This document shows positions 39,301 through 46,196 of a stretch of 64,000 nt of DNA, piece by piece (position 1 is the first letter of the stretch; the number at the start of each line of letters is the position of its first letter). A program made the translations under genes and the position numbers. Where the stretch lies: NCBI GenBank assembly GCA_905116865.2, contig CAJHNH020003179.1, positions 482,139 to 546,138 of the forward strand, written 5' to 3'. This DNA is from Candidula unifasciata (taxonomy: Eukaryota > Mollusca > Gastropoda > Stylommatophora > Geomitridae). The notes beneath the pieces are model-generated. The model was given only the letters and a program-made list of their open reading frames with translations. It made no database searches and was not told the DNA's origin.

Positions 39301-42300
39301 AACTGTCCAACATCTGTTCTCTCGGTCTTCCTTTGTGTCTCCTCCCCTCCAACTTTCCTTCTCATCACTGGTGTTAGTGCACCCAATGGAATAACATGCA
39401 CCATCATGAGATTAGAGAGAATAGCAATTCTGACGAAGAAAGAAATGAAGACTATTGCTGAGGAAAGAAAAAAGACAGAAATGATTTTCTAGATATATAT
39501 TTATATGATTCTGTTTTATTTATAATATTTTGTTGTTTTGTTTTAAGGTACAAATTTTGGCTGGTTGATTGTAAAGGCAACTATACTTCTTTGATGAAAA
39601 TTCAACGTAAACTTGAAAACAGTTCTCTGTACTTGTAAGTAAAAACAAGAAATGTGTTTACCTTCTCTTGAAACTGTCTTATCTTCGGTTCAATTATTGC
39701 TGTAAAATGTTGTTACAATTGTTGTTTTTGCTGCTGCTATTTCTTATTAGTAAGAGTAAAGTAAGGACGCTTTTCCGCGCCCTTAGGCATATTGGGGATA
39801 TAAGGCTAGACCTTTTTTTTTATAGACCAGTCGGCACTTGGTGGTTGATGTGGTCAGCATTACGCTGACTGTCTTTACTTCCCAGGATTGTGCCTGGTTG
39901 ACTTAGTAGTATGTGACAATAATGATCAAGGCACCTATAACTGTCACAGTAGCCTAGTGTAACCTGCAGTCCACTGCAGAAAAGAGACAGAATAACTGAC
40001 TGACTGACGTTCGACCTCACCAGGATATCACACTGAGCAAAAAACACCTGGTGACACAAAGTGTCATCATTCAGATGAGGATCACCTGGGACAGGTCCCA
40101 AAAATCCCATTCAACCCATAAGTTGGGTTAAAATTAGGGCCTCCTACAACAGCCAGATTGGGCCTCTATAACAAACAAAAAATTGCATCCAACGTTGGGA
40201 CGCATGATTAATGCATGTAAAGAGGTAGAATAAATTCAAAACTGAAAATAATTGATAAAGTTTCATTTATTATTCCATTGAAAATATATTTTACTGTATC
40301 AACAAATCATAATTTGAAACTCAAATTATAAATTTAACTGTGACACTGTCTAAGTGATGCTTCTATGACAAGCACATGTTGAAAGTTATACCAAGGTATC
40401 ACATTGTTTTCATTCTGTTTATGTCTCTACCACACATGCTCACGACTAGTGCAGGTGTACTGACGTTGTTGGTATTCAAGGAGAACCATGTTAAGGAAGC
40501 CTTTGACAGGTTCAGCTCTGTGTCTGTCAGTGCCTCCTCCAACGTTTTACCTTGTTCGTTGACCGTGATATTGCCCCATAGACAACCTCTTGCATTAAAG
40601 TTTTTGGATCTCAGCATGGACGCACAAACTCCATACCTCCGGCAAGGATCGAGTTTATATTGCAAGAAGTGGAAAATGATGGCAAAAGAAAATTGAAATA
40701 GCATAGGAATTTGAAATTCCAAAGCCAGTGTTTTTAGAAATCGTAATCCCTATGTGGGTTCTGCGGCCCCATTGTGGGAAAAACAAAAATAGACCCTCTA
40801 CCTCCCTAACAAGCATGTCGTAGGAGTCAACATATTGCTGACATCCTTTGAAGTTGAAGTACATATGCCTGAGAGGCAAGGAACCACAAGTCTGCATACA
40901 AATAAGCCAGTTCTGGGAAATGGATGTGCATGCAACACTCAGGTTCTGGAGCAAGACTTCAGTCTGGAGGTTTAAGAACACCCAGAACTTTCCGTATGAG
41001 TTTATAGCTCGTGAACGCGAAGAAGAAGCAGAAGAAAAATCATAAAAAATAAGGGCTGGAATAGAAACATGTGTTATGGCTGACAAGCTGATTTCACAGA
41101 AAAAAGAACCAAAAAGCAGCAATGATGATGATGATGATGACTGTGGATTGCCAATGCAAGCTGTTTTAAAGTTGAAGGTTTCAAATTGCTTAGATAAAAT
41201 TAACATGTATATAATGCAGGCAAAATGCCAAGCTCATTTAATTTCTCATTTCTTTGGATTTGAAAAGCCCAAGAAAATACATTTTATTAACTCAGTTACC
41301 AAGGTACAGAGAAAAATTACAGACTTTTCATTTAACAGTGTACAAATTCTAGATATAGTGATGACTGTGGGTTAATGTTACAAACTAACCCACAGTTGGA
41401 AGTTTCAAATTATATGGATAAAACTAACATGTAGGTAATGCAGGCTGGATGCCAAGAGGATTCATTTAACATTTGTCTGAACTTAAGGATGCCATGCAAA
41501 GATATTAACTCAAGTACGGGTACTAAGATACAGGTACTAAGATACAGGTACTAAGATACAGGTACTAAGATACAGAGAAAAGTTGCATCTTTTTCATTTC
41601 AAAGTGTAAAAAGTGCTGATATTCTCAAGATGCGTGCGCCAGCTGTGTGCCTTAGCACTTTTGGTGATTTACATATTTTATGTCATACATCTGTCATTTT
41701 CAGTGCTAATTCATTATTGTATTATACGTTGTAAATGCATTACCATATGCTTGAACTCTTATCTGGATAAGAAGAATTTCTGATAAGAAAAATCTTTTCT
41801 TGGCTTTCTGGTGAGTTCTTAGCTGGTCTGCACTGTATTCTGCTATATCTTCTTCTTTTTCTTCTTCTTCTCTTCCACCATTTACCTCATTGAGGTATTG
41901 GAGGGAGATGTAAGGATCATTTGTGCGGTTTTTCCAATGCATTGTAGAAGTTGGTGATTATTTCTGCTATATGACTATGCAATATCTTAACGCCCAAAAT
42001 TAAGAAAATAAAAATGTTTATATTTTTTGTGCCACATTGCATGCACGTGCAAAATTTGAGCTTGACAGTTTATCAGGAAATATTGTAACACAAAAAAGTA
42101 AACAAAGTGGGTTGACAGAAGGATGCATACCCCCTAAATCACAGTTTGAGTTTTTATCTACTTTGAAACTTTGCAAGTGAGAAATACCAAATTAGTTCTG
42201 GCTTAATTGATAAAGGGAAGTTGTACAAATTCTAATTTGATGCTTGGACTGAATGTGTTAATAATAGTATAGTAATTAAATGTGACATGTCTGTTGCAGA

Positions 42301-46196: not shown

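Follow-up and report, generated by a model that had tools for sequence, protein, structure and literature searches.

The separase-like gene and its exons

Sister chromosomes are held together by rings that the enzyme separase cuts, and separase is usually regarded as one essential gene. The window, that is, the whole stretch of 64,000 nucleotides analysed (C3176:482139-546138 of the 1.34 Gb Candidula unifasciata assembly of 7,176 contigs, which is the genome searched), carries a separase-like gene on the + strand. Thirteen exons are numbered in the window (190 to 46196). They are listed below, together with the positions assigned by alignment with paralogs and human separase. P0002 is the Bradybaena similaris protein BsWGS_20953.

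190..358, +, exon 1; one open frame with AG/GT flanks, 46% identity to P0002 residues 416-471
4440..4597, +, exon 2; phase 0 at its end
4598..7918, +, stretch matching the position of the relatives' large exon (about 350 aa); exon not found by tblastn
7919..8044, +, exon 3; 65% identity to P0002 over 37 residues
13424..13544, +, exon 4; part of the in-frame exon 3-13 join
17015..17154, +, exon 5; in-frame exon 3-13 join, weak donor gttggt
17667..17800, +, exon 6; carries EWTVVQ, in-frame exon 3-13 join
19647..19730, +, exon 7; counterparts matched in C224a, C224b and C2700
24070..24243, +, exon 8; in-frame exon 3-13 join
30862..31047, +, exon 9; in-frame exon 3-13 join
33567..33790, +, exon 10; PWENMP and VTRMPSL; alone against Peptidase_C50, E 2e-5 and 24.4 bits, below the cut-off of 27.8
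39548..39634, +, exon 11; in-frame exon 3-13 join
42300..42452, +, exon 12; both catalytic positions
42310..42312, +, CAT codon of the catalytic His, aligned with human H2003; His retained
42376..42378, +, TCT (Ser) codon where the catalytic Cys, human C2029, would be
45995..46196, +, exon 13; stop and YGLPV C-terminus, in-frame exon 3-13 join
46041..46043, +, position of the Asp that binds P1 Arg (human D2070; role described in passages of PMC12609080); Asn here

When exons 3-13 (7919-46196) are joined, they give 543 codons including the stop codon, or 542 residues, with no internal stop. AG is present at 11/11 acceptors and GT at 10/10 donors of these exons. The donor of exon 5 (CAG followed by gttggt) is weak; it was selected since LPAEWTVVQ is restored in this way. 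The 283 residues encoded by the last five exons match Pfam Peptidase_C50 with an E value of 6.4e-19 and 68.8 bits (cut-off 27.8), and the same C-terminus matches human separase chains with an E value of about 5e-10 over query residues 49-282. The separase scaffold claimed by the earlier note for the C-terminus is therefore present. The span given there, 39548..46196, covers only exons 11-13. The gene is longer on both counts, with exons 1-13 in the window and exon-like matches upstream of it, at C3176:457858 and C3176:462256 and about 9.3 kb before the window start; it begins upstream of the window.

Exon 2 is three residues short in a cysteine cluster kept by relatives, which reads SSCC-QSE in the window, SCCRCCQSE in Bradybaena and NACSCCQSE in C1051. 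This cluster might correspond to the CxCxxC motif of PMC5921967. The intron between exons 8 and 9 contains a 3 kb tandem array of a 23-bp unit (24707-27748), and minisatellites are found in other introns (31678-32631, 15175-16116 and 38666-39288). A 589-residue open frame with no clear Pfam match lies in the intron between exons 10 and 11 (36184-37953), and reverse-transcriptase pieces lie 3' of the gene (46866-49106; RVT_1 at 48750-49106, E 4.5e-8). Both regions are likely retroelement remnants.

Catalytic and substrate-pocket residues

In human separase, the catalytic residues are H2003 and C2029 (PMC9729208), D2070, G2002 and T1961 lie at the P1 Arg, and R2067, R2071 and R2101 lie in P-site 1 (passages of PMC12609080). 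At the corresponding positions, the window gene has His at H2003, Ser at C2029, Gln at G2002, Ser at G2004, Thr at G2006, Ile at G2028, Asn at D2070, Arg at R2067, Pro at R2071 and Gly at R2101. Two of the three basic residues of P-site 1 are thus gone, and TDKDID is gone as well. The canonical separase of the same genome, C3388, itself differs from human separase at 2004 (Gly to Ser), 2005 (Ala to Trp) and 2008 (Arg to Gln), and therefore these positions say little.

The His motif is broken, as reported earlier: the flanking glycines are lost (SQHSR(T) as compared with AGHGA in human separase), but His itself is retained. The reading of Ser at the catalytic Cys position is confirmed. This Ser lies 22 residues from His in a gap-free alignment with C2700, which has His and Cys at equal spacing, and its codon TCT is one step apart from TGT in C2700 and C224b. 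As compared with an active separase, the window gene retains the Peptidase_C50 match and lacks the catalytic Cys and the Arg-pocket Asp.

These losses would be artefacts of the gene model if another exon with intact GHGxG and GCS replaced exon 12. Among + strand frames that are 20 residues or longer and lie before position 50000, GHG occurs once, at 30660, and GCS three times, at 7607, 8370 and 29309. Neither motif occurs between exons 10 and 13, and this motif search gave no alternative intact catalytic exon. In addition, each of the five modelled paralogs has a counterpart of exon 12 between its exons 11 and 13. Such an artefact is hardly credible.

The separase family and its loss of catalytic residues

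A Pfam profile search of the genome gives seven matches at six loci, all above the cut-off, and the search with P0002 extends the family to at least 12 loci: C3388, C2700, C1051, three places on C224 (C224a, C224b and C224c), the window locus on C3176, C5119, C1762, C1556, C6638 and C7056. Canonical separase motifs are found at one locus, C3388. A second copy with intact motifs, which the earlier note had proposed looking for, is thus present in the same genome and is predicted from these motifs to be active. The catalytic exon 12 is read at 11 of the 12 loci, the exception being C5119, and is open at all 11. The search in which exon 12 was not found at C5119 also missed the known exon of C224a, and therefore its silence on C5119 is no proof of loss. 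This exon 12 search of the genome gives 12 matches, ten of them at family loci; C307 and C602 were dropped, and the sequence of C307, when read, is not separase-like. The residues around the catalytic His and Cys positions are as follows.

C3388, GHSWG/GCSS, dyad kept
C2700, GHAWR/GCRT, dyad kept
C1051, GHGWS/CCCG, dyad kept
C6638, GHGWS/SCNG, dyad kept
C224c, GHSLK/GCDS, dyad kept
Window (C3176), QHSRT/ISKT, Cys to Ser
C224a, VHRSS/GSKS, Cys to Ser
C1556, GHRRS/SSDF, Cys to Ser
C224b, GPSIL/GCET, His to Pro
C1762, GDRWQ/SGGS, His to Asp and Cys to Gly
C7056, GDGWS/GQGS, His to Asp and Cys to Gln

The dyad is kept at 5/11 loci and broken at 6/11. It was lost in at least three separate events, because the three kinds of loss strike different residues, whatever the deep order of the tree. 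His is kept in all three Cys-to-Ser members and lost in the other three dead members.

A deletion of four residues in the His-Cys loop is shared by all ten non-canonical loci read and by Bradybaena. The Arg-pocket Asp is gone in 6/6 proteins checked, namely the five paralogs with exon 13 and Bradybaena (Asn in the window gene and C1051; Ser in C224a, C2700 and Bradybaena; His in C224b), and is kept in C3388, Aplysia and human. It is gone also in the three checked members in which the dyad is kept. The P-site 1 positions of Bradybaena stay basic (Lys, Arg, Arg) in the absence of this Asp, and therefore the substrate groove has decayed unevenly.

For the paralogs C3388, C1051, C2700, C224a and C224b, 53 of the 55 exons corresponding to exons 3-13 are placed, the exceptions being exon 7 of C3388 and exon 3 of C2700. 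All 53 placed exons are stop-free, in models whose boundaries a script selected among AG/GT pairs of suitable phase, with a penalty on stops. The agreement of splice sites and phases is thus built into these models. Retroposition is ruled out, as introns are retained in the six modelled copies, and uncollapsed haplotypes are ruled out for the same six, which are 39-65% identical. The newer loci are set apart by clear branch lengths in the tree.

The 542-residue window protein is 47% identical over its full length to P0002 and 30% identical to an Aplysia protein; Bradybaena and Aplysia are both heterobranch gastropods. The homologue search with the 283-residue C-terminus gives one match, a 322-residue piece of fish separase, because candidate length is tied to query length. 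A search with the 542-residue model tripled and its last copy scored gives four proteins, including those of Bradybaena and Aplysia, from the 7,988 best candidates with the most shared words. The search with P0002 gives itself and 17 others, those with organism names being fungal, and the longer Aplysia protein falls outside its length limits. Because of these length and candidate limits, further snail relatives could easily have escaped the searches.

For six loci, Bradybaena and Aplysia, the protein tree is (((((window, C224a), C224b), C2700), Bradybaena), C1051) as opposed to C3388 and Aplysia. The paralog clade including P0002 has a support of 100/100, and therefore the duplication is older than the split of the host and Bradybaena. 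A wider tree adds the newer loci with 109-173 residues each, and C5119 with 44 residues, so that its position means little. The Cys-to-Ser group (window gene, C224a and C1556) is monophyletic (99/95), as are C1762 and C7056 (99.6/100), whereas the deep order and the placement of Bradybaena are weak. P0002 shares with the window gene the paralog clade, the loop deletion and the loss of the Arg-pocket Asp, but differs from it in keeping the His-Cys dyad (GHSWD...SCDS).

Selective constraint, the large exon and a possible non-cutting role

Selection was analysed for exons 3-13 with a codon model of our own code (F3x4, one kappa, branch-wise omega; six sequences, 545 columns, one topology). The canonical branch has an omega value of 0.18 and the paralogs have one of 0.50, in a comparison made with a single program and a long canonical branch. 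The dN/dS ratio of the window branch is 0.50, which differs from 1 (2dlnL 13.8, p 2e-4). The ratios of C2700 (0.41, p 1e-5) and C1051 (0.33, p 3e-6) also differ from 1, whereas neutrality is not rejected for C224a (0.71, p 0.12) and C224b (0.85, p 0.46). The short branch above the window gene and C224a, on which Cys was lost, gives an unstable omega of 2.2 or 10.7 (p 0.11 against 1 for the latter). The suggestion that selection keeps the gene as a non-protease thus agrees with the constraint on a Cys-less separase homologue over exons 3-13.

When the branches of the window gene and C224a, their common branch and that of C224b are taken together as a dead clade, omega is 1.02 in exon 12 and 0.60 elsewhere. 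For the other paralog branches, these values are 0.36 and 0.39, respectively (LRT for the dead-clade contrast, p 0.01). Within the dead clade, the neutral look appears confined to the catalytic exon. This result bears on a serine-type variant, in which Ser at the Cys position and the kept His would form a working pair with a new substrate range. Retention of His in the window gene, C224a and C1556, all of which are Cys-to-Ser, and its loss in the other three dead members are consistent with such a pair. However, Gln and Ile replace the glycines of 2002 and 2028 in the window gene, which also lacks the Arg-pocket Asp, the human mutant C2029S is inactive according to passages of PMC12609080, and the exon that would carry the pair looks neutral. 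A serine-type enzyme is therefore very improbable.

Neutral simulation from the window sequence at 0.244 per site gives 13.5 expected stops in 536 codons, as compared with none observed, and 0/300 runs stay open. At 0.04 and 0.06 per site, 20/300 and 5/300 runs are open, respectively, and therefore neutral decay in roughly the last fifth of the branch has room. The window gene was probably held by selection for most of its history, with its cutting parts lost. A simple pseudogene is argued against for exons 3-13, and a recent event is possible because the large exon is not found.

This large exon, of about 350 residues, lies between exons 2 and 3 of relatives and corresponds to P0002 residues of about 575-920. 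It is present in C1051, C2700, C3388 and three C224 copies. Three variants of this exon, used as tblastn queries against the window and the preceding 10 kb, give nothing convincing; the best match in the stretch between exons 2 and 3 has an E value of 2. The genome search with P0002, in which the best 32 of 3,497 candidates were scored, finds the large exon at at least ten places on eight contigs, including three times on C224. None is on C3176 among the matches listed in this search; the C3388 copy is also unlisted there, and therefore the silence of the search, with 32 of 3,497 scored, is by itself no proof of absence. The end of exon 2 is in phase 0 but phase 1 is needed for exon 3, so that their direct join gives a stop after 11 codons. 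The claim of intact frame and splicing over 13 exons accordingly holds for exons 3-13, but fails at this junction. The mismatch probably arises because the large exon carried by relatives is not found in the window gene. The sisters C224a and C1556 have the large exon with open frames, and therefore its loss would fall on the window gene's own branch.

In C7056, the large exon (C7056:220598-221059) sits in an open frame of 1876 residues, far longer than in the other listed copies. In C3388 (L011-L013, oriented positions 6471-21426), exons 3 and 4 occur twice, as does a portion of the large exon, with the copies 8.0-9.5 kb apart, which may represent either a partial tandem duplication or an assembly duplication.

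The gene may be recently dying, an inactive paralog, long under constraint, that the loss of the large exon has only lately disrupted and that would no longer give a full protein. The failure to find this exon, the phase mismatch and the room left for neutrality by the stop simulation are in favor of this account, and the first of these means a real chance that the window copy is on its way out. However, the eleven later exons are stop-free with 21/21 splice dinucleotides, and exon 1 joins exon 3 in phase when exon 2 is skipped, so that an in-frame messenger is possible. Recent death is on the whole unlikely.

The window gene is probably, though far from certainly, a selectively kept, non-cutting pseudo-separase, which belongs to a large gastropod family derived from separase and which would bind partners and tune the canonical enzyme. 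If expressed, its protein would retain the separase fold and the helical docking surface and might bind securin, kleisin or cyclin B without cleavage. It might thereby tune C3388, perhaps in the germ line, by competing for partners, with the docking surface kept and the pocket lost, hence no cutting. Human separase binds securin and kleisin at docking sites along its length (passages of PMC12609080 and PMC6858450), and partner binding through the N-terminal docking surface of the window protein is possible. A version in which the active site traps substrate as a decoy is weakened. Human C2029S, a laboratory mutant used to capture substrate complexes, has the equal Cys-to-Ser change at the nucleophile, but it retains D2070, G2002 and the basic patch, and its structure was determined with substrate bound (passages of PMC12609080). 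The window gene has lost most of these residues. As this Asp, the Gly before His and two of the three P-site 1 basic residues are lost, a C2029S-like hold on substrate is not expected.

As compared with separase/separin (ESPL1, PF03568 Peptidase_C50), the window gene shares the C-terminal scaffold, the YGLPV end, MAGCP, LDGDG, PWExMP and VTRxPS, and its exon layout is that of the genome's canonical copy. It differs in Cys to Ser, in the loss of the His glycines, the Arg-pocket Asp and TDKDID, and in that the large exon is not found. In the split separase of Drosophila, the protease half stays active. This split into Sse and THR (described in PMC5921967) is likewise a lineage-specific reshaping of separase, but there the protein is split in two, whereas in the present case the gene has multiplied and its protease half is decaying. 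According to PMC11110935, a separase gene was not found in three Potamopyrgus species, so that separases of gastropods either are difficult to detect or truly vary. Among the open-licence PMC papers listed, mostly as titles and abstract starts, no report was met of a family of separase paralogs or of a catalytically dead one.

The finding is real, larger than first reported and unusual: a pseudo-separase within a separase family that both radiates and decays. As the Arg pocket is missing also from copies with an intact dyad, the paralogs seem to have left cohesin cleavage before catalysis, and recognition may have been lost first. It is conceivable, and put forward tentatively, that a land-snail lineage has a separase family of at least a dozen genes in which the loss of substrate recognition came before three or more losses of catalysis, and that selection keeps dead members as non-cutting regulators of chromosome separation. 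One canonical copy and at least 11 diverged copies, six of them dyad-dead, would provide a natural series for the non-cutting parts of separase, which could address such roles as securin binding, cyclin B-Cdk1 inhibition, and centriole and membrane roles.
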